DNA of 64,000 nt, taken from the NCBI GenBank assembly GCA_019155205.2, contig JAHNZQ020000005.1:100388-164387 (forward strand). The letters are read 5' to 3'. The DNA is from Gracilaria vermiculophylla (Eukaryota; Rhodophyta; Florideophyceae; Gracilariales; Gracilariaceae). Numbering within the stretch: the stretch's first letter is position 1; each line of letters starts with the position of its first letter. The notes below the pieces were generated by a model. It did not search any database. It had not been told where the DNA came from and was given only the letters and a program-made list of their open reading frames with translations. The position numbers were made by a program, and so were the translations under genes. Positions 1 through 41,769 of the stretch are shown here, piece after piece.

Positions 1-1
1 A

Positions 2-811
2 ACATTTTTAGGTTTATTTATCTATTACTATAAAACTAGTGGTAAATTTCGGCAATCAATCATTGCTGCCTTTGCGGCTGCAACTTTCTTTTTCTCAGGC
101 CTGACAACAGCTCGTGCAGCAGGTGAAGCTGATGCTTTTACACCACAACCACAACATCAGAGTCGTCCTAGTCATCGTTCAGGTTTCTTTAGTGGTATTC
201 CAAAATACCCGAAAACAGAATCAATTGAAGAAACACAAATACACCTTTCTAATATTGACGAACAGATCAATAAATTAGAAGAAGTAACAGATTCTGATTC
301 AGAAATAGAAGAAAACCAATGTCAAATTAAACCACCGGGCAAATTTGAAGTTGATTTTGATTTTGAGTTAGATAAAAATGGGAATCCTACACTTATCATT
401 CCAATGAAAGATGGTAGTATTCGACGTATAGAATTTGATCAAACTCGTGATAAATGGTATCATGAAGATCTGTTTCCAAATATATCAGCGCCAGATGGTT
501 TTGATAATCAAGCTGTGCGAGACCTAAAACACTCGGATAGATTAGCCTATTTAAGAGAAAATATTCCCGATAAAAATGTTATTGAACTACAAAATGAAAT
601 AGGGAAAAGTTTGAGCCATCCTAAGATTATTTCAGTACCAGGATTTTTAGGAAAATATAAAATCGAAGGAACGGTTGATATAAATATGCAATCTGGATTA
701 GTCAGTTTTACAAACGGTGTTACAAATAAACATAGAACAATTGTGAAAATGTCGCCCGAGAGAATTCAAAAATTAGCAAAGGACGGCTTTCACATATTTC
801 CTGAGAAATAA
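2..811 (+). CDS. Toxin-like protein with N-terminal membrane segment, 5' end outside window
   Basis: The frame is open from base 2 to a stop at 811, so the 5' end lies before the window; 269 codons are visible. The visible part begins with a hydrophobic segment (about residues 20-38) ending in an Ala-rich stretch, like a signal or anchor. A low-complexity linker rich in Pro, Ser and Glu follows. The last 70 or so residues form a compact basic domain. Its position, just before a gene related to the colicin-type immunity gene at 21142-21528, suggests a C-terminal toxin domain. That domain is not obviously the colicin-D type seen at 20777-21142; it may share a small RNase fold, but I cannot name the family. 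The partner gene starts 15 bases downstream. Codon use is AT-rich like the surroundings. The toxin role is inferred mainly from context. Confidence 0.5.
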   Translation, partial: TFLGLFIYYYKTSGKFRQSIIAAFAAATFFFSGLTTARAAGEADAFTPQPQHQSRPSHRSGFFSGIPKYPKTESIEETQIHLSNIDEQINKLEEVTDSDSEIEENQCQIKPPGKFEVDFDFELDKNGNPTLIIPMKDGSIRRIEFDQTRDKWYHEDLFPNISAPDGFDNQAVRDLKHSDRLAYLRENIPDKNVIELQNEIGKSLSHPKIISVPGFLGKYKIEGTVDINMQSGLVSFTNGVTNKHRTIVKMSPERIQKLAKDGFHIFPEK

Positions 812-826
812 TAACTAAAGTTTAAA

Positions 827-1303
827 ATGGTTAATAAATTCAATGTTTCACGGTATCGTGAATTGTTAAAAAAAAAAGATATTTTAGAAGAACAAAACAA
901 GTTCTTATTCGATGACCCTGATTATCTTGAATTACTTTCTTATCAAGCAACTGTATATCGTCAAATTTATTTTAGTCGAAAAAGTGATTATTGTTCTTTA
1001 ATCAAAAAATATTTAAATACAACAATCCCTCCTCATAAATTGAGAGCTAGATTCTTGGAAATGGTCAAACAAGATGACGAAAAAGCTGAAAAAATTCTTC
1101 AAGATTTTAACCAATTATCTAGTTTTTCAATTGATGTTAACTTAGATGGGTTTTCGTCTTTATTTGGACGAATTTCTAACAACTGTCTTCAAGCATTTGA
1201 ATTTGGTCCCAAGAATGATGGTTATGGAATTCCTGAAGATGAATTTAGAAATTCCATTGAAGAAATTTATTTTCAACTCGAAAACTATTTGAATGAAGAG
1301 TGA
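827..1303 (+). CDS. Probable colicin-type immunity protein
   Basis: This 158-residue soluble, helix-rich acidic protein lies 15 bases after the toxin-like gene. Its C-terminal two thirds line up by eye with the protein at 21142-21528. Both have an Arg-Lys pair followed by Tyr, a Phe-x-x-Met motif, a Leu-x-Gly-Phe-Ser motif, a Cys followed by Phe-Glu, and a final Arg-Asn then an amphipathic helix. The other copy sits directly after a colicin-D-like domain, so both are best read as members of the bacterial self-protective colicin-like immunity family. Its role would be to bind and neutralise the upstream protein. It has an N-terminal extension of about 35 residues that the other copy lacks. Family assignment is by motif only. 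Confidence 0.5.
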   Translation: MVNKFNVSRYRELLKKKDILEEQNKFLFDDPDYLELLSYQATVYRQIYFSRKSDYCSLIKKYLNTTIPPHKLRARFLEMVKQDDEKAEKILQDFNQLSSFSIDVNLDGFSSLFGRISNNCLQAFEFGPKNDGYGIPEDEFRNSIEEIYFQLENYLNEE

Positions 1304-7662: not shown

Positions 7663-8280
7663 TTATGATACCCACTCAATAAGTTTGTCTTTGATGCTTT
7701 TGACGACAGATTTTTTGTCAAACTTAATATATTTCGACACTTCTTGGTCAGTCTAACCTGTTCCAGTGTTAAAAGTTTGGGTCATGTTAAGAATTACTGG
7801 AATTACAAAAAGTTTTTGAGGTAAAGAATTTACGTATCAATTCCACATGACTTCAACGCCTTTGATTGGAAGTGCGAACAGATCACCGGTAGTAACAAGA
7901 CCTTTTCCAATGGTATTATAACCAACGAGGGCGCCACATCCGTAAAAAAACATAGCCCCAGTCGTTGAAATTGCGACTGAAAGGAAAGGTTGAGCTTGCA
8001 AAATTTGGAAACCGTTGACGCCAGCTAGCTTTGCAATTCCGAGAGTTTGTGCGAGTAATCCAGGTGGCTTGAACAACAAGATTTTTGTTTTTGAAGAATT
8101 GCTGGGCCTGCAGCATTGCTGATTCTTTAGTAATTTCTAATTCAGCTGCAACAGTATTACCAATTATATCTAAATTAGATACAAGCTGGCAAAAACCATC
8201 AAAATCAAGGATGAGAGTTTGGGTTTCTGGAAGAGAACGAAATCTTCCACAAACTTTTGTAATTTGATCACAAAATTGAT
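7663..8280 (-). pseudogene. Broken paralogue of ORF277
   Basis: Minus-strand frames across this stretch match the ORF277 protein (17927-18760) from about its residue 50 to its end. Shared landmarks are a Lys-Val-Cys-Gly segment, a Gln-Ala-Gln-x-Phe-Phe motif, Phe-Phe-Tyr-Gly-Cys-Gly followed by a Gly-x-Asn-(Ser/Thr)-Ile-Gly motif, a Trp-Asn, and a Lys-Trp/Glu-Trp C-terminus. The copy is split over at least two frames near 8060, has an internal TAG near 7760 and lacks its N-terminus. It is a decayed duplicate. The frame at 7837-8079 alone is only a fragment. Confidence 0.6.
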
Positions 8281-8780: not shown

Positions 8781-10337
<1,557 letters not shown>

Positions 10338-17926: not shown

Positions 17927-18760
17927 ATGGAATTTCAAAAAAAAAATACACCAGAATTAAAAAAAGAATTAGTATTTTATCTTGAGAAGGAGAATAAATC
18001 AATACTGACTGCTAGGAGTGTTGCCTTATCATTTGATACAGGTCAGCATTGTTTTCCAGCCGAAAGTTTTGATATGGCACTTTGCAGCAAAATTAATGAT
18101 GTTTGCGGTGTAGTAAAAATGATTCCTGAGACTAATAAATTAGTTATGGAATATCCTAGTTTTTGCAAACTTGTAACAAACTCCGAGTTTATTGTGACAT
18201 CAGTAGCTGATAGTATGGGAATAGAGAAATCTGTTGCCGTTCAGCAGGCGCAGGAATTTTTCGCGTCAAATAAATTAGTAGTCTCGCCAGTTGGATTTCA
18301 AGGTAAAATTTATAAAATGGGATCTGCCATTCAGTCTTACCTCCCAGCAGGATATGTTAGTACTTTCATAATGAATGCGAGATTAATTGGGGGTGAGGGT
18401 TTGGGTCTTATGGCTAATAATGCAGGTATGTATTTGGCACTTCCAACAGTTGGAAGTCTATTTTTTTATGGTTGTGGGGTTATTGCTGGGAGCAACAGTA
18501 TAGGTCAATCTTGTAACACAGTTGGCTACGTTTTGTCACGTCCAATGGCGTTGACAGAACACTTATGGAATAACGGTCCCGCTGTTTTGATTCATAAGAC
18601 GATCGGAATTCCAATCGTTTTGAATCAAACTAAAGCCTTAGTTCACGGGTCAGGTTACAGCTACGATGAAATCAAAAAATTTATCGGAATTAATCACAAA
18701 TCTTTATTAAAAAAGGGTAAAAACTGGTTGATCGGTAAGTTAGGGGGTCAAGTAAATTAA
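17927..18760 (+). CDS. Hypothetical protein ORF277
   Basis: The 277-residue protein has a good ribosome site (AAAGGAA) before its ATG. The N-terminal half is soluble and mixed. The C-terminal half holds a hydrophobic Gly-rich region (about 150-195) with a Phe-Phe-Tyr-Gly-Cys-Gly motif and could associate with membrane. A decayed relative lies at 7663-8280 on the other strand, so it belongs to a repeated, mobile family. Codons ending in G (GCG, GGG, TTG) are more common than in the conserved genes nearby, which suggests a foreign origin. I do not recognise a function. Confidence 0.6.
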   Translation: MEFQKKNTPELKKELVFYLEKENKSILTARSVALSFDTGQHCFPAESFDMALCSKINDVCGVVKMIPETNKLVMEYPSFCKLVTNSEFIVTSVADSMGIEKSVAVQQAQEFFASNKLVVSPVGFQGKIYKMGSAIQSYLPAGYVSTFIMNARLIGGEGLGLMANNAGMYLALPTVGSLFFYGCGVIAGSNSIGQSCNTVGYVLSRPMALTEHLWNNGPAVLIHKTIGIPIVLNQTKALVHGSGYSYDEIKKFIGINHKSLLKKGKNWLIGKLGGQVN

Positions 18761-19262: not shown

Positions 19263-19676
19263 TTAAATATCCTGCTGAATAGTTTTCGACGATTCTAGAG
19301 GCTGTGAAGGCTCGCTGAGAGTATATTTTGGATTCTCTCCGAAACGAAGTGCCGTCATTAGTTTAGATTCTAATTGAATTACTTTTTGTTGAAGTCCTTG
19401 TACTTGATTTTGAAGAGTTTGAATCTTTGCATCCAAACCAGGACTCGAACTTCGGTAAGTAGAGTTTATAGTCTCAGTGTATCCAAATAAAAATTCAAGC
19501 AGAGCACCTTTTTTATTTTGTCGGATAATATCTTTTACTTTTTTCCAGAAAAAAGGTTGAAGATTAGTTTTTAAAATTTGATAATCTTCTCCATTTTCGA
19601 AAATTTCTAGTGCATAGAGAAAATAGCCACGGAAAGAACGTATTTTTCGTTGTTTAGAATCCAATTCTTGAATCAA
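19263..19676 (-). CDS. Hypothetical coiled-coil protein
   Basis: The 137-residue protein is soluble and basic in its first half, with a coiled coil at about residues 82-110 (Leu-x-x-Gln-Val-x-x-Leu-Gln-Gln-Lys heptads). A segment near residues 40-55 (Gln-Pro-Phe-Phe-Trp, Ile-Ile-Arg-Gln-Asn) recurs as a remnant at about 6986-7060. That shows it belongs to a family with more than one copy in this genome. No promoter or operon partner is evident. Function is unknown; DNA-associated roles are possible but unsupported. Confidence 0.4.
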   Translation of the reverse strand: MIQELDSKQRKIRSFRGYFLYALEIFENGEDYQILKTNLQPFFWKKVKDIIRQNKKGALLEFLFGYTETINSTYRSSSPGLDAKIQTLQNQVQGLQQKVIQLESKLMTALRFGENPKYTLSEPSQPLESSKTIQQDI

Positions 19677-20211: not shown

Positions 20212-20293
20212 CTTAGGAATTATACAGACCTATCGATTCTCGATTTATAAATTCTTAAGGAATCGGTAGGCCTATTTTTGACTTGATTTTAGC

Positions 20294-20375
20294 AAAAGGT
20301 ATAATCACACTACTCAAGCTCCCAATACTTTTTCACAGGCCTATAAATGCCCTCTGAGAGGATATTTGATTCTGA
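20294..20375 (+). repeat. Dispersed repeat family C, copy 2
   Basis: It is similar to 1372-1455: AAAGGTATAATCAC, a GGCCTA core and CTCTGAGAGGATATTT. Both copies lie in the spacers that hold toxin/immunity modules. Confidence 0.55.
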
Positions 20376-20680: not shown

Positions 20681-20820
20681 AAGAAAGAACTAAGGTTCCG
20701 TATTATGACATTAATGGTGCTTGGCCATCAACGGTTTTTGCTACTCCTGGAACTAAAGACTCATCGCCAATAATTATTGCATTTAATGAATCAACTGGAG
20801 ATAAACAAAGCAAGATATAA
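20681..20820 (+). pseudogene. Out-of-frame upstream part of the colicin-D-like gene
   Basis: One frame is open from about 20684 to a TAA near 20820 and encodes a coherent segment (Asn-Gly-Ala-Trp-Pro, then Thr-Pro-Gly-Thr). It runs directly into the toxin domain but one register off. It looks like the end of a longer leader or linker once joined to that domain and separated by a small indel near 20806-20816. No start codon for this part is visible. Confidence 0.4.
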
Positions 20821-21142
20821 TCGCCGTATTCCAGAATTCGGTTGTATCATGGAAGATTTACAAGTTCGAAAAAAATTTAAGCATTCAGGGGATTTTGGAG
20901 TTATAGGTAATCCTAATCGAAAAAATTTCGAATTATTTAAAGATAAAATGTTAGAACATATGAGAGACCCCTCAACAGAAATCAAACATGGTACATATAA
21001 AAAAAATATTGAAGTAATGCATTACTTCAACGAGGATACAGGTTTAAATGTAATGATACGTCAAGATGACAATACTTTTTTAAGTGGATGGAAATTAAAT
21101 AAGGAGCAAAAACAAAATGTAAAAAATAGAGGAGCTTTCTAA
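20777..21142 (+). CDS. Colicin-D-like C-terminal nuclease domain
   Basis: The 121-residue basic frame resembles the colicin D catalytic domain, an anticodon-loop tRNase in bacteria. Visible landmarks are a Lys-x-Lys-His pair (Lys33, Lys35, His36) then Gly-Asp-Phe-Gly, a Gly-Thr-Tyr near residue 72, Thr-Gly-Leu-Asn-Val near 88, and Ser-Gly-Trp-Lys near 103. In colicin D the active site is known to involve a Lys/His cluster and a Ser-x-Trp, so these residues appear kept. It lacks any translocation or receptor domain. Its stop overlaps the immunity ATG (TAATG). An upstream part is out of frame (20681-20820), so the full-length ancestor is broken; the shorter frame may still be translated. Activity is not shown. 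Confidence 0.6.
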   Translation: MHLMNQLEINKARYNRRIPEFGCIMEDLQVRKKFKHSGDFGVIGNPNRKNFELFKDKMLEHMRDPSTEIKHGTYKKNIEVMHYFNEDTGLNVMIRQDDNTFLSGWKLNKEQKQNVKNRGAF

Positions 21143-21528
21143 TGAATCACTTTGAAAATCATTCTGCTTTATTGTTGGAAAATTTTAGTTACTGGGAGAA
21201 TAGAAAACTTTATTTGGAGTTAATGGAAAGATTTATTAATGAGAGAATTGATGGGACGCAATTTGATAGCGAATTTTGCCAAATGTGGAGAGTAGATCGT
21301 GATAAAAATTATAGTTCAAAAGAATTGCTTAATACGATAGATCATTTAGATTTAACTAAATTAGAAGGTTTTTCAGCTCTAATATCAGACTTATTCACTG
21401 ACTGCGATGTCTTTGAACCCGACTCAGCTTTAAGAGAGGATTATGAAATATCCGAAAAAGAATTAAGGAACCGCGTAAAAAAAACTCTTTTAGAAATAAA
21501 AAATCGTTACCCTTTCAATGAAAATTAA
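21142..21528 (+). CDS. Colicin-type immunity protein
   Basis: The 128-residue acidic, helical protein fits the bacterial self-protective colicin-like immunity family. It has an N-terminal helix with Tyr-x-x-Leu-Met-Glu-Arg-Phe, a Phe-x-x-x-Phe-Cys-x-Met-Trp, Leu-Glu-Gly-Phe-Ser-Ala-Leu, and a C-terminal Glu-x-Glu-Leu-Arg-Asn helix. Its ATG overlaps the toxin stop by one base, giving coupled expression. It is related to the protein at 827-1303. The reading frame is intact and is followed by a strong terminator. The expected role is to bind and block the upstream nuclease. Confidence 0.6.
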   Translation: MNHFENHSALLLENFSYWENRKLYLELMERFINERIDGTQFDSEFCQMWRVDRDKNYSSKELLNTIDHLDLTKLEGFSALISDLFTDCDVFEPDSALREDYEISEKELRNRVKKTLLEIKNRYPFNEN

Positions 21529-21533
21529 CTAAC

Positions 21534-21584
21534 AAAATTCCAATTAGAACTATCAAATCTTTTCAAAGTTCTAATTGGAATTTT
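21534..21584 (+). terminator. Terminator of toxin/immunity pair
   Basis: Arms 21534-21551 and 21567-21584 form a perfect 18-bp hairpin (AAAATTCCAATTAGAACT) with a 15-base loop and T-run, six bases after the immunity stop. Confidence 0.85.
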
Positions 21585-21599
21585 TTATTGTTTTCCTCA

Positions 21600-21850
21600 A
21601 AAACAGTTAATGAAGGTCATCCACGATTACGAGTTGGATTTTGGCAATCTAGATGGACCTTGATGGTTTACCCTATAATGTAAAAAATAATGGTGGTACA
21701 AGGACTGAAAAGAACGACTATACTGCATTGGCGATGATGCAATCAATACAAGATATGCTTCATCGCCCAAATGCAATATGGTTTGATCAAGACGACCTAA
21801 CTTATCAATTTAAACAATGGTCTGTGTCAAGAGAGAAAAACGAAGACTAA
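21600..21850 (+). pseudogene. Frameshifted unknown ORF after the toxin/immunity pair
   Basis: Two overlapping plus-strand frames join near 21655: the first has Gly-Phe-Trp-Gln-Ser-Arg-Trp, the second (21653-21850) has Gly-Leu-Pro-Tyr-Asn and a C-terminal Ile-Trp-Phe-Asp. They look like one C-terminal domain broken by a frameshift. Its place just after a toxin/immunity terminator, with no start of its own, resembles an orphan toxin tip, but I do not recognise the family. Its stop overlaps the psaB stop by two bases in convergent orientation. Confidence 0.35.
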
Positions 21851-24183: not shown

Positions 24184-27100
24184 TTAACTAATTGAAACAG
24201 CACGTGCTAAGAAGAACGCCCATGTAGTTCCAATACCCCCTAATAAATAGTGAGCTAAACCAACAGCACGACCTTGAGTAATACTTAAAGCACGTGGTTG
24301 AATCGCTGGAGCAAAGTTTAATTTATTATGTGCCCAAACAATTGATTCAATTAATTCTTGCCAGTAGCCACGACCACTGAATAAGAACATTAAACTGAAT
24401 GCCCAAATAAAGTGAGCTCCTAAGAAAATTAAACCATACGCTGATGATGCTGATCCGTATGATTGAATTACTTGTGAAGCTTGTGACCATAAGAAATCAC
24501 GTAACCAACCATTAATTGTAATAGCACTTTTTGCAAAGTTTCCACCGGTAATATGCGAAATAGCACCATCAGGTGTAATCGTACCCCAAACATCTGATTG
24601 CATTTTCCAACTAAAGTGGAAAATCACTACAGAAATTGAATTATAGTTAAACTAGAGGTCTTGTTACCTTGACCCCCGTCGACAGATCCGGACGTGAGAC
24701 TTTCACCTCATCCGGCTCCTGCCCAAGTTGTATATTAGTTTTCTTGCTTTGAGACCCATCGATTCTAGATTTCTCGATGTGGCAGTGTTTATGCAGAAGC
24801 TGAAGATTTTTATATTCGTCTTTCCCCCCTAACGAGCGGGGAATTATATGATCAACTTCAACAAAAGAATTTTCTGTAACTAAGGTTTTACACCATCTAC
24901 AGTATCCATTTTGCCGTTTGATTAATTTACGTTGTCTGATAGACCAGTTTCCTTTGGTAAGAGTTCGTTTAGCCCAATATACATTGTCACCATCATATGG
25001 TGATTTATCCGCTTTGATTTTTACCCACTTTTTACTTTTTACCCAAACTATATGTGGTAACCAAATTTCTTGTATTTTCCCATATTTGCCAAGTTGTTTT
25101 CCGGTTAAGACCCAATTATCTTGATGCCGTCTTCCGTCATAAAAATAGGTTTTTCCACTAGGGAAGTACCGTTGTTTTACCTTTATTCTTCCATTACGGG
25201 TATCTCTACGAAATACCCAAGCTCTAAGCTTTTGGTGAATGAGATGTGTTAATTTATGAAATACTTTTTTACAGTCTGAGAATCTGAAGTAATTTGCCCA
25301 CCCAATTATGACTGGACGAAGTGTTAAAATTAGGTTATAAGTCGAAGCGCTACGATTATTTTGTAGTATATTCCGAACTTTGAATAACAGAGTAGCTTGA
25401 GATTTTCTACTCGGGTAAATTTTTACTCTCGGTCTACCACGTGTGATGGTGATTATCGAAAATCCTAAAAAGTCAAATCCTTCGTTAGAATCCACAATGG
25501 ATGTTTTAGCCTCACTGATTTCTAAGTGGGGTCCGTCTAGAAGCCATTTAGCTATTTCTTTCTTTGCTTCTTGGATTATGGATTTTTCTTTATGAATTAC
25601 TACGAAATCATCTGCGTAACGTATCAATGCTAACGATTTACGTGTTGCATCCTTGGTATACGTGTTTGTTTTCCCAAAAGAAGGTTTAGTACAGATCCAA
25701 TCCTTTAAGTGGTTTTCCATCCCATGAAGGGCAATATTGCTTAATAGTGGAGAAATTATCCCTCCTTGCGGTGTACCTTGAATACTCTTTGAAATGCGAT
25801 CCATTTTGCTGGCTTGGAATTCATCAAAGATGTCTGCTTGAAGCCATGCTTTTACCTGATTTTCGATTTCTGGAATGGTTTCCAGTTTCGTGAGAAGGTA
25901 ATTGTGATCGATTTTATCGAAAGATTTGCTTATGTCAGCATCCAAAATGTATTTATGAAAACCTTTATCTCCAGATGTATTTCGCAAATTTAGGAAAATA
26001 GACTCTATTGCATCGTGACAGCTACGCCCTGGCCGAAATCCATAAGAATTTGGTTCGAAACGTGCTTCCCATTCTGGTTCAAGTGCTAGTAAGCATAACG
26101 CTTGTTTTGCTCTATCTTCTATGATGGGGATACCTAATGGTCGTTTATCTTTCTTTCCAGGTTTCTCAATGTAGACACGTTTAATCGGAGATGCTTTTCC
26201 ATCTAGCCTTAATTTTTGTACTAATTTACCTTTTTGATTATCTGTTACGAATATCTTTTTGTCTATTCCTGGTGTTCTTTTGCCTTTATTCAATGTTGTA
26301 ACTCGTCTTACAGCCATCAGCTTTGCATCCAAACTACGCAAGAGTCGCTTTTGCAAACATTTAACCTTAGGGCTATTATTGTCTCTTGAAGCTTTATAAA
26401 TTCTAGTTTGATATCGTTTAACTCTAAACTCGACCTGTGTCCAGTTTATAGTCTTCCACGCAATAATGCTCATATGGTATCAAAATTTATAATAATATAA
26501 CTAACTTGGACCCCAAAGGCGTCAGCGTATCCCGATCTTTTGTTAATTAATACGGGCATGCTTCTCCAATGAGTCCCTCACGGTAAAGTTGATATGAGCT
26601 GGTTGCCCGCCTCAGAGAGGCATCACTTACCGCTTTCCACCGTTCCATATTTAAATATTCACTTCTCTTTTAGGATTGTACATTACACGGCCCCATTTTG
26701 CGATTTAACGCTGCTTTCTGTCGATTTAAAGTGGACGAACTTTAACCGTTTAAAGGCACTTATACGAGTTTACGTTGCGACTATAGGCATACATAGTCAA
26801 CAAGTGATACCTAGCCTTAGGAGGAAACCTCCTGCCTATTTTGATATACCATGCTTAAATACTACCCAATTGGGCTAACAATTTATCCATGAGAGAATAC
26901 CAGACTCCTTTGCTAAACCCTAGAATAATACCACATTATTTTTCGGTAAGGAAGTCTGGGCGAAGATACAGATATCTCGGGGGAATTTAACCCCATTTAA
27001 ATATAGTTATACTTTCTTTTATTGTAGATTTATTTGATTTGGTTACTTTCTGCTAGTTGGTATCCTTTTTTTTTTACGAACTAAATCGGGTCTTTACAGG

Positions 27101-39347: not shown

Positions 39348-39641
39348 ATGATACAAAGATTAGATATAAATTCAAGAAATTACCAAAGTCGAATTTTTAT
39401 CAATTCTATATCTCATATCTCTATCCCTCGAAAAGAGCTTCAAAAACAAGGACTAGGAGCTGCACAAAAAGAAGGCAAATATCAAGGGTGGAAAACTCTG
39501 ATTAATCAAACTTTGATTCCCAAAGTTAAATATTTGAAAGAGACTAAAAATTTGTCTATTATTCAAATAGCCAAAATAATGGGTAGACCGAGATCTACCA
39601 TTTATAAAATTCTGAAAGAGGAATTAGAAATTAGGAATTAG
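39348..39641 (+). pseudogene. Serine recombinase C-terminal fragment, copy 1
   Basis: The 97-codon frame matches the tail of small serine recombinases (resolvase/invertase type). It has a linker with Gly-x-x-Ala-Ala-Gln-Lys-x-Gly-Lys-Tyr, a Lys-Thr-Leu-Ile strand, and a helix-turn-helix with Leu-Ser-Ile-Ile-Gln-Ile-Ala-Lys then Arg-Ser-Thr-Ile-Tyr-Lys-Ile-Leu-Lys. The catalytic N-terminal domain with its Ser is missing, so recombination is not expected. It may still bind DNA. Confidence 0.6.
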
Positions 39642-39865
39642 GAATTGAAGCTGCTAAGAAAAAGGGTAAATATTTTGGTCAAAAAACTGTGATTGATAAA
39701 AAATTAATCTGACAAGTTCAAGATTTAAAAGAAAATAAAAATCTTACCATTACTGAAATCGCAAAAGGTACTACAATTTATAAAGTTTTAAAAAATGAAT
39801 TAAATTATGTCCCATACAATCGATTAATTAAAGCAACCAAAGGAAAAACAAATGAAACAAAATAA
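39638..39865 (+). pseudogene. Serine recombinase C-terminal fragment, copy 2
   Basis: Directly after copy 1, in another register, the same tail recurs: Ala-Ala-Lys-Lys-Lys-Gly-Lys-Tyr, Lys-Thr-Val-Ile-Asp, Thr-Ile-Tyr-Lys-Val-Leu-Lys-Asn-Glu-Leu. It has an internal TGA near 39708 and lacks about five residues in the turn of the helix-turn-helix. Its TAA lies inside the next ORF (ATG at 39852), a 14-base overlap that suggests an ancestral operon. Confidence 0.55.
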
Positions 39866-40939
39866 ATTAAGTTTCGAATCAGAAAATTTCCAAGTGGATT
39901 ATCTCACATTCAATATTCAAGTCGATTTAGTTAATAGAATTGTAAAATATTTATTTCAACATTTTGACTTCAATTCAATTATTTCAAACTGCTCTAAAAA
40001 CAAAAAACACCTTTTTTTTAGTGATAAAAACAGACATCAAGTTGAATTCGCAGTTTATCTGCGTGCTCCAGAACTAAATAGTTTCTGGGATGGCACTCAA
40101 ATTAGGTTCTCTGGAAAAAACGCAATAAGATTTTATCAACTTATTCAACAACAAAAGATTAATTGGCATTTTTTCAATATGCTATTCCAAAACAAAAAAA
40201 GATATAGTCTAACTAGTTGTCATCAGAAAATACTTCAAAATTGATGCACAAAATATATACAGTCCAATCGAAATAAAAAAGGATTTATTTGAAAAGTAGG
40301 CTCTAGAAAGAATTCTAACTTTCAATTATTATCGCGTTTATGAAAATAATTAGGAAATTAGATTTGAGTTAGAGATGAAAAGCAGCAGAGTTCAACCAGA
40401 ATAGTCTTTCAGTATCCGATACAAAAAAAGTTTTTGGCTTATTCCAATTTTTGTCTTTTATTCGGACGATACCTTCTCAGACATTTGAGACAATAATGAT
40501 ACAGCATCAAACATATTACGGTATTACCTTTCCGTTGAAAGATTTTGCCAAATTCTTAGGAGAAGAAGAAAAATATAAAAGTTATGGTGACCGATATAGA
40601 CGGAAAAAGTATATTCAATTATTTACTAATCTTCAACATATTAAACCTTTGATAACTGCATTTTCTGATCAAAAATTTCAAAGTTCAGTCGCTTTACCAA
40701 CTCTATCGATAGACAAAATTAATTTCGATTGGGTTGTCCAACTTTCAATTGCTAAAGAACTTTATTTATACGATTATCCTTTTATACTTACTAACTCTTT
40801 GATAATTTATAAGAATACGTACGAATTGCAGATTAGATATAAGATTCTTCAAAACTTTAGCGTTAATGATTTAAAAAAAACATTTGATGTTCAGATACTT
40901 CTTAACAGCTTCAATGCTTCTCAAAAGAGAAATCATTAG
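39852..40939 (+). pseudogene. Plasmid-type ORF, possibly replication-related, copy 1 (broken)
   Basis: Frame 39852-40244 (130 codons) begins like ORFs known from diatom plasmids and plastid inserts (Glu-Asn-Phe-Gln-Val-Asp-Tyr-Leu, then Phe-Ser-Gly-Lys-Asn-Ala). It continues after stops and shifts through about 40245-40450, where a Phe-Glu-Leu-Glu-Met-Lys motif is visible, into frame 40451-40939 (162 codons). The same order of motifs recurs at 44815-46040, so these pieces are one gene. A role in plasmid replication is a guess from its setting. Confidence 0.5.
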
Positions 40940-41454
40940 ACAATTAAATCAATTACCAATTCAGAACCAATACTAGTTGCATCTTAAAAATGGAAAAACT
41001 AGAATAGTAGATAAATTAACTCCTCTTATAATTGGAAAGACCAAAATTATGCATTTTTATCAAAAACTTTAGAACCGTTAAATCATCTAAATTAATAAAG
41101 GTTAGATAGTGGTTAGACTATACCATTATAAACTTAGTGAATATTGAAAATATTAGCATAGCTATATAGATTGGAACTCTTTTATAATCTCGAGAAATTA
41201 TCAAATCAGAGTCAAAAAAAAGATCCCCGATTTCTCAAAATGAGACTTTTTTATAATTGTACTTGTAAAATAACTATTAAATATTTAGTAAGAATATGCT
41301 TTTTAAAAAACGGAAAGGTAATCAAAATAAGATAAAACCAAAGAATTCAACTAGATAAAAAACTATTCCCTTAATAGATATTAATTTTATGGAACCTTGG
41401 ATATTGAAAGAAATATAATCAACGATTAAGTTTTCCGATTCAAAACTTAATTTA
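40940..41454. other. Spacer without recognised genes
   Basis: AT-rich DNA between the plasmid-type ORF and the serine recombinase remnant. No intact frame, tRNA or strong hairpin was recognised. Confidence 0.45.
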
Positions 41455-41670
41455 TTGTGATTCATTTTTCTCCTCCTTCCCTGCCATATCGGTTGAATAA
41501 GATAAATCGAATGATATCAATATTACTTGACTTCTTTGACAGCTTGGCCTGGCATTTTAAGAATTCAAGAGTATTCCGTCCCCAACGGTCGATTTTAGTC
41601 ACAAGTAACAAATCATTTTCTTTTAATTGATGATCGATAAGATGGTAAAAAATAGGACGGTCTTCAAAAG
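41455..41670 (-). pseudogene. Serine recombinase catalytic-domain fragment
   Basis: On the minus strand the frame gives a resolvase core: Asp-x-Leu-Leu-Val-Thr-Lys-Ile-Asp-Arg-Trp-Gly-Arg-Asn then Leu-Glu-Phe-Leu. After a frameshift near 41520 it gives Tyr-Ser-Thr-Asp-Met-Ala. These are characteristic of the small serine recombinase catalytic domain. The N-terminal nucleophile Ser region is not recognisable. The fragment is in opposite orientation to the two C-terminal pieces at 39348-39865. Confidence 0.65.
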
Positions 41671-41769
41671 ATTCAAGAAATTAGGTTTGAAACAACGCAA
41701 AAGAAGATCTCTAAGAGGTTTTTTTGATATCTATTAAAAATTCTCTAATCTCTAACACATAGATTAATG

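Follow-up and report, generated by a model that had tools for sequence, protein, structure and literature searches.

A Colicin D-Type Nuclease Gene and Its Immunity Gene in Plastid DNA, Probably Belonging to a Polymorphic Toxin Repertoire

Introduction

The antibacterial protein colicin D of Escherichia coli and its immunity protein ImmD, the gene of the toxin lying directly before that of the immunity protein, are the closest described relatives of the gene pair reported here. The pair occupies positions 20777-21528 of a window of 64,000 nucleotides (the whole stretch of DNA that was analyzed) from the Gracilaria vermiculophylla assembly GCA_019155205.2, here called G000; the window is G000:C19:100388-164387, where C19 stands for the contig JAHNZQ020000005.1 of 202,106 bases. 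The two genes belong to the same nuclease and immunity families as colicin D and ImmD, with the same active-site positions and the same gene order, but the plastid proteins are without receptor-binding and translocation domains, most of their relatives have a short leader, and they are encoded in plastid DNA.

Two other described systems are comparable. Bacterial polymorphic toxins (PMC3482391) likewise combine shared N-terminal parts, exchanged C-terminal toxin domains and immunity genes, whereas the proteins described here are short (about 190-480 amino acids) and found in a plastid; eukaryotes are considered in the available text of that paper as recipients of toxin and immunity domains, and neither plastids nor organelles are mentioned in it. 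The diatom plastid plasmids pCf1/pCf2 and pHSC1-3 and the related insertions likewise carry serC, an open reading frame (ORF) of about 480-515 amino acids and integrated plastid copies, and their other ORFs (orf350, orf138 etc.) are described as hypothetical in the available parts of PMC2873285 and PMC8070900, which propose neither a toxin nor an immunity function for them; orf350/orf138 as a toxin-immunity pair is a lead. An earlier reading of the window made from the sequence only (hereafter the sequence-only reading), in which the pair was proposed to be colicin D-like, knew of no such system in an organelle, and in agreement with it no report on toxins in plastid DNA was found among the titles and abstract beginnings listed from the open-licence literature, nor is toxin or colicin mentioned in the available parts of the plastid and plasmid papers searched for these words. 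What appears to be new is the presence of the colicin D and ImmD families in plastid DNA, together with a linker-sharing toxin repertoire; the families themselves are old.

We consider it likely that the two genes represent the nuclease end of a colicin D-type cassette and its immunity gene, and that this cassette belongs to a polymorphic repertoire of plasmid-derived diatom plastid DNA. The copy in the window is probably a remnant without leader in which both genes, nuclease and immunity, are intact; the leader was most likely lost by recombination, and the copy is most likely retained mainly for immunity.

The Toxin Gene and the Immunity Gene

20777-21142, + strand: colicin D-type tRNA nuclease (tRNase) domain gene, leader-less, assigned by PF11429, colicin D structures, active-site positions and relatives.
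21142-21528, + strand: ImmD-type immunity gene, 128 amino acids, assigned by PF09204, 151 relatives and a low-confidence model.
21534-21584, + strand: AT-rich hairpin of 18 bp (fold -20.1 kcal/mol, z -6.9), at which the pair may have its 3' end or terminator.
20704-20817, + strand: open stretch in another frame (three-frame translation; 38 residues searched) ending inside the toxin start.

The toxin consists of 121 amino acids if translated from TTG at 20777 or 118 amino acids from ATG at 20786, and its isoelectric point (pI) is 9.5. Residues 30-114 match PF11429 (Colicin_D) with an E-value of 5.8e-14 and 52.6 bits (cut-off, 25), and a single-sequence search of the PDB found the colicin D tRNase domain for residues 29-110 with an E-value of about 1e-14, so that the proposed relation to colicin D was upheld by the very profile searches that could have refuted it. 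The active-site positions of colicin D, K608, K610, H611, S677 and W679, are all kept in the window toxin (5/5). Of these, the catalytic His611 is named in the available text of PMC9990079.

The gene covers the nuclease only, since no receptor-binding or translocation domain was matched by Pfam in its 121 amino acids, and judged by its domains it is not a complete colicin bacteriocin. It has no leader either: the alignment to the family begins at NKARYNRR, and the preceding sequence is the end of the open stretch 20704-20817, which occupies the leader position of the relatives and which, on the unmasked contig and the pieces of a second contig (C2), matches nothing beyond its own place. Small gene fragments without family flank the pair on both sides. 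The leader-less state and these fragments were absent from the sequence-only reading, as were the second, leader-bearing pair and the several toxin-immunity loci of the contig described below.

The overlap of the two genes by one base was found exactly as had been described, the toxin stop codon TAA (21140-21142) and the immunity ATG (21142-21144) having one base in common. The immunity protein is indeed acidic (pI 4.75) and matches PF09204 (Colicin_immun) with an E-value of 4.3e-15 and 56.5 bits (cut-off, 22). ImmD in the PDB was reached with an E-value of 0.33 (not significant) by the single sequence and of 0.004 by a profile of 19 sequences, and ImmD chains were the best structural match of the predicted model, which is of low confidence. 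NCBIfam gave nothing above its cut-offs for the pair, and PADLOC gave nothing at an E-value of 0.1. What had been called a strong terminator behind the pair is the AT-rich hairpin; a consensus terminator scan, which requires GC pairs, lists none.

In type II toxin-antitoxin modules, the antitoxin has a DNA-binding domain and is usually encoded first in the operon. Here Pfam found no DNA-binding domain in the immunity protein and the toxin gene comes first, and by these features the pair would not be classed as a type II module.

Relatives in Metagenomes and Other Databases

A protein search gave 33 toxin relatives out of 35 candidates, with 61-100% identity and at most 200 amino acids, and 151 immunity relatives out of 163 candidates, 120 of them listed. 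Among the toxin relatives that cover each active-site position, K608 is kept in 30/30, K610 in 28/30, H611 in 30/30, S677 in 25/26 and W679 in 23/23. A signal-peptide-like leader, defined by hydrophobicity as the sole criterion (a hydrophobic stretch in the first 60 residues with a 12-residue mean of at least 1.6; lowest value, 1.69), is present in 23 of the 33, in most of them ahead of an APLPGADG-like stretch, and in 16 of these 23 the hydrophobic stretch is preceded by a net positive charge. The ten relatives without it are P0010 (189 amino acids, with another N-terminus) and nine proteins of 67-146 amino acids, which may be cut by contig ends; the leader-less P0013 (127 amino acids) is on a contig of 94.5 kb. 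P0017 has 74 residues identical to the window toxin and has a leader, its own frame ending early; a metagenome thus contains nearly the same gene in a leader-bearing form. Eight of the 33 toxin clusters have a longest contig equal in length to that of listed immunity clusters (120 of the 151 being listed), which points to their location on the same contigs.

The relative P0001 and the plasmid-borne colicin D of E. coli are 43% identical over residues 95-176. In the plasmid collection P0001 gave 50 records, all below 60% identity, the rows listed including colicin D-type genes of bacteria, and the immunity protein gave one weak match (E-value, 0.009). Scans with short patterns, by which absence is not proven, found no toxin relative and one distant immunity match (28%) in 84,980 prokaryote species genomes and, in viral contigs, no relative by the toxin alignment, the immunity alignment or the serC protein.

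Plastid Location and the Sister Locus

The pair follows rbcL-rbcS at a distance of about 3 kb and is 0.3 kb away from psaB, with psaA and a group II intron reverse transcriptase (RT) further on that side (rbcL, rbcS, psaA and psaB were named by eye from the translations, the RT additionally by Pfam); the plastid location given in the sequence-only reading is thereby confirmed. The guanine + cytosine (GC) content of the pair is 30% and that of the window 31%. Contig C19 encodes tRNA-Arg with the anticodons ACG, CCG and TCT.

Within G000, immunity homologues were found only on C19 and C2, and the order rbcL-rbcS-toxin-immunity is the same on both. The immunity frame of C2 is intact and the toxin frame has stops, its last 44 residues remaining. 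The immunity gene thus outlived the toxin at this locus. In a simple counting method applied without a significance test, the synonymous (dS) and nonsynonymous (dN) distances between C19 and C2 were 0.57 and 0.25 for the immunity gene, 0.56 and 0.015 for rbcS, and 1.22 and 0.36 for the toxin over 44 codons. The similar dS fits descent of the immunity gene together with rbcS, and dN < dS in the immunity gene fits loose constraint. The sequence-only reading had named as evidence against itself an immunity gene disrupted in sister strains that keep the toxin gene intact, and the one sister locus found shows the opposite. In addition, serC adjoins the immunity gene of C2 (L003).

Toxin Repertoire and Mobile DNA on the Contig

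1-811, + strand: toxin gene of the second pair, open at the window edge, with a signal-peptide-like leader, an acidic linker and a C-terminal domain of 135 amino acids (404-811).
827-1303, + strand: immunity gene of the second pair, 158 amino acids, of the same family as 21142-21528, assigned by hidden Markov model (HMM) and profile comparison.
39426-39838, + strand: remnants of serC-type serine recombinase in two places, one with internal TGA and TAG.
39852-40948, + strand: remnants of the plasmid-type ORF of about 500 amino acids in two places, one with stops.
41525-41674, - strand: serC fragment.

Contig C19 carries nine ORFs of the immunity family by the family HMM, a lower bound like all counts on this contig, which cover it minus 22.8 kb. 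A toxin-like ORF is followed by an immunity-family ORF at C19 296-2247, 4600-5632, 14979-16200 and 86269-87751 and at window 1-1303, and immunity-family ORFs without a visible toxin-like ORF in front are also present. In the second pair of the window, the immunity gene 827-1303 joins the family with E-values of 5.7e-10 (HMM) and 8e-8 (profile comparison) and has no Pfam match of its own; the C-terminal domain of its toxin was not matched to colicin D by sequence, and its predicted fold is best matched by the colicin D tRNase.

Moreover, an N-terminal linker is common to three unrelated C-termini on C19 and to the colicin D protein P0010, the similarity being weaker with filters on. Most of the linker-bearing C-termini have no family match and are presumed to be toxic. 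Shared N-terminal parts, different C-termini and immunity genes, by which a polymorphic toxin system is recognized, thus appear to be present together on this contig.

Of the ten places with a serC-type recombinase, C19 has eight and C2 has two, and in four of the ten the gene is near full length. The plasmid-type ORF of about 500 amino acids occurs in twelve places, all on C19; several of the fragments of both contain stops, and those on C19 do not adjoin the pair of the window. According to the available text of PMC2873285 and PMC8070900, serC and ORFs of about 500 amino acids mark pennate diatom plasmids and plastid insertions, and pennate diatoms are, as stated in PMC8070900, the only group known to have serC plasmids.

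Some further observations concern this repertoire. The second pair has 29 metagenome relatives. A second immunity-like family (84-125 amino acids, alike by eye, with no Pfam match above the cut-off) lies behind or near toxin-like ORFs at L021:3099-3476, L012:3765-4115 and L018:6650-6904. Two overlapping genes on the minus strand, L024:9027-9425 and 9407-9883, have no family above the cut-off and are toxin-immunity-like by layout only.

Origin of the Plastid

The gene rbcL is found at four places in G000, on C19 (100% identity), C2 (95%), C17 (83%, with one stop) and C20 (82%), and to judge from these sequences more than one plastid lineage is present in the assembly, or in the organism itself. 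The psaA gene of the window (24184-26473) is interrupted by an ORF of 608 amino acids for an RT/maturase with an HNH domain (Pfam). In Haslea silbo, according to the available text of PMC8070900, the psaA intron holds an RT named orf608, which equals that of the window in size. Because of this RT and of the serC plasmids, it is a fair guess that the plastid bearing the pair is that of a pennate diatom.

Proposed Role

The nuclease activity, tRNA target, export and role are presumed as follows. A full-length toxin of about 190 amino acids would consist of a signal-peptide-like leader, a short linker and the colicin D tRNase domain, and the contigs that encode it would also bear an ImmD-type gene. 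By its family, the nuclease would cleave tRNA-Arg of the plastid in its anticodon loop, between positions 38 and 39, and thereby halt translation there, and the immunity protein would cover the active site of the nuclease and spare translation. Plastids or plastid plasmids bearing the immunity gene would then be protected. Inhibition would strike those without it, either upon an encounter of toxin-bearing with toxin-free plastid genomes or upon loss of the plasmid. With the leader the toxin would cross a membrane, which implies a conflict between compartments; without it, the toxin would act only inside its own plastid, next to its immunity gene.

It can be proposed, more tentatively than the cassette reading itself and with somewhat less than even confidence, that diatom plastids possess a bacteriocin-like arsenal on plastid plasmids, made up of tRNase toxins that are exported and exchangeable and of a bank of immunity genes, which decides the survival of plastid genomes in cells shared by plastids of different lineages (e.g., after mating) and selects for immunity kept after the toxin is lost. 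The occurrence of this pair as one of several toxin-immunity pairs suggests that conflicts resembling those fought with bacteriocins may be waged or survived by chloroplast DNA. Plastid genomes are viewed as reduced and as serving housekeeping; should one of them contain a set of nuclease toxins with their immunity genes, organelle DNA would join in conflict of the bacterial kind, the unexplained ORFs of diatom plastid plasmids and insertions would acquire a suggested function, and competition and loss of plastids in mixed cells would have a testable cause.

The cassette reading is built on the domains, the residues, the pairing, the leaders in most relatives, the shared linkers, the recombinase and plasmid ORFs and the C2 locus. 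Several points weigh against it. A Sec-type leader inside a plastid leads to the thylakoid lumen, an odd place for a tRNase, and the window copy shows no sign of export because its leader is missing. The plastid origin of the metagenome relatives, which come without context, is presumed. The gene content of C2 differs from that of the window both between rbcS and the toxin stump and behind the immunity gene, and the immunity gene has a dN/dS of 0.44, much above the 0.03 of rbcS, again without a significance test. Not all catalytic positions are kept in the other Colicin_D protein of C19 (86269-87261), and the incomplete coverage of the contig in the counts also belongs here. Furthermore, some Colicin_D toxins cut acceptor stems and not the anticodon loop, as the available text of PMC9990079 reports.

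Alternative Explanations

The pair might be a fossil, that is, a decaying and silent remnant of inserted plasmid DNA without present function, as the missing leader, the flanking fragments without family, the many serC and plasmid-ORF fragments on the contig (several with stops) and the toxin stump on C2 would suggest. We regard this as unlikely, though to be taken seriously, for neither the nuclease frame nor the immunity frame is broken, all five catalytic positions are kept, the immunity gene has an unbroken frame in both plastids with dN < dS, and the hairpin is present.

Doubtful to a greater degree is an addiction module, in which a stable toxin and a shorter-lived immunity protein punish the loss of the plasmid or plastid stretch and the leader-less form is the working one. 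Two overlapping genes followed by a hairpin, the recurrence of leader-less proteins such as P0013 and the plasmid-type serC and ORFs on C19 agree with it, but the toxin comes first and the immunity protein has no DNA-binding domain, unlike most type II pairs, a leader in 23/33 relatives is unneeded by an internal toxin, and immunity-family ORFs without a toxin-like ORF in front are not predicted by addiction. The sequence-only reading had suggested an addiction module or a part in plastid competition as the possible role; because the leader is missing here (versus 23/33 relatives) and gene fragments lie on both sides, an addiction module working from this single locus is not the reading that we find most probable.

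It is improbable that the toxins with a leader are secreted from the plastid, or set free by cell lysis, and hit bacteria or other algae. The signal-peptide-like leaders and the antibacterial nature of colicin D, the closest solved relative, speak for such secretion; against it, relatives of about 190 amino acids are too short for receptor-binding and translocation domains, several membranes enclose the diatom plastid, and the position of the immunity gene in the plastid means that the threat is to plastids. An assembly chimera or bacterial contamination within the plastid contig is very improbable indeed: although G000 is mixed, as the rbcL copies of 82-100% identity on C19, C2, C17 and C20 indicate, plastid genes stand on both sides within about 3 kb, the GC content agrees with that of the window, C2 has the same order, the metagenome proteins P0017 and P0035 are 99-100% identical over the shared part (in samples perhaps not independent of this one), and the prokaryote pattern scans gave only the distant immunity match.

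Other Features Near the Pair

21653-21850, + strand: ORF of 65 amino acids between the pair and psaB, with no family (ORF list, Pfam).
20278-20305, + strand: sigma-70-like promoter match (11/12; promoter scan) about 470 bp upstream of the toxin.

The sigma-70-like matches are not above chance in number (6 found versus 7.8 expected). Between rbcS and the pair lies an ORF of 277 amino acids (17927-18760) with no Pfam match, which has a relative in two frames on the minus strand at C19:108065-108659 (window about 7678-8272; 32-42% identity, E-value 6e-30). A repeated ORF family of up to 342 amino acids, for one member of which Pfam gave nothing above the cut-off, is found on both plastid contigs and is often fragmented (window 19263-19676, L020:8008-9036, L012:5665-6672 and L010:2523-3038).
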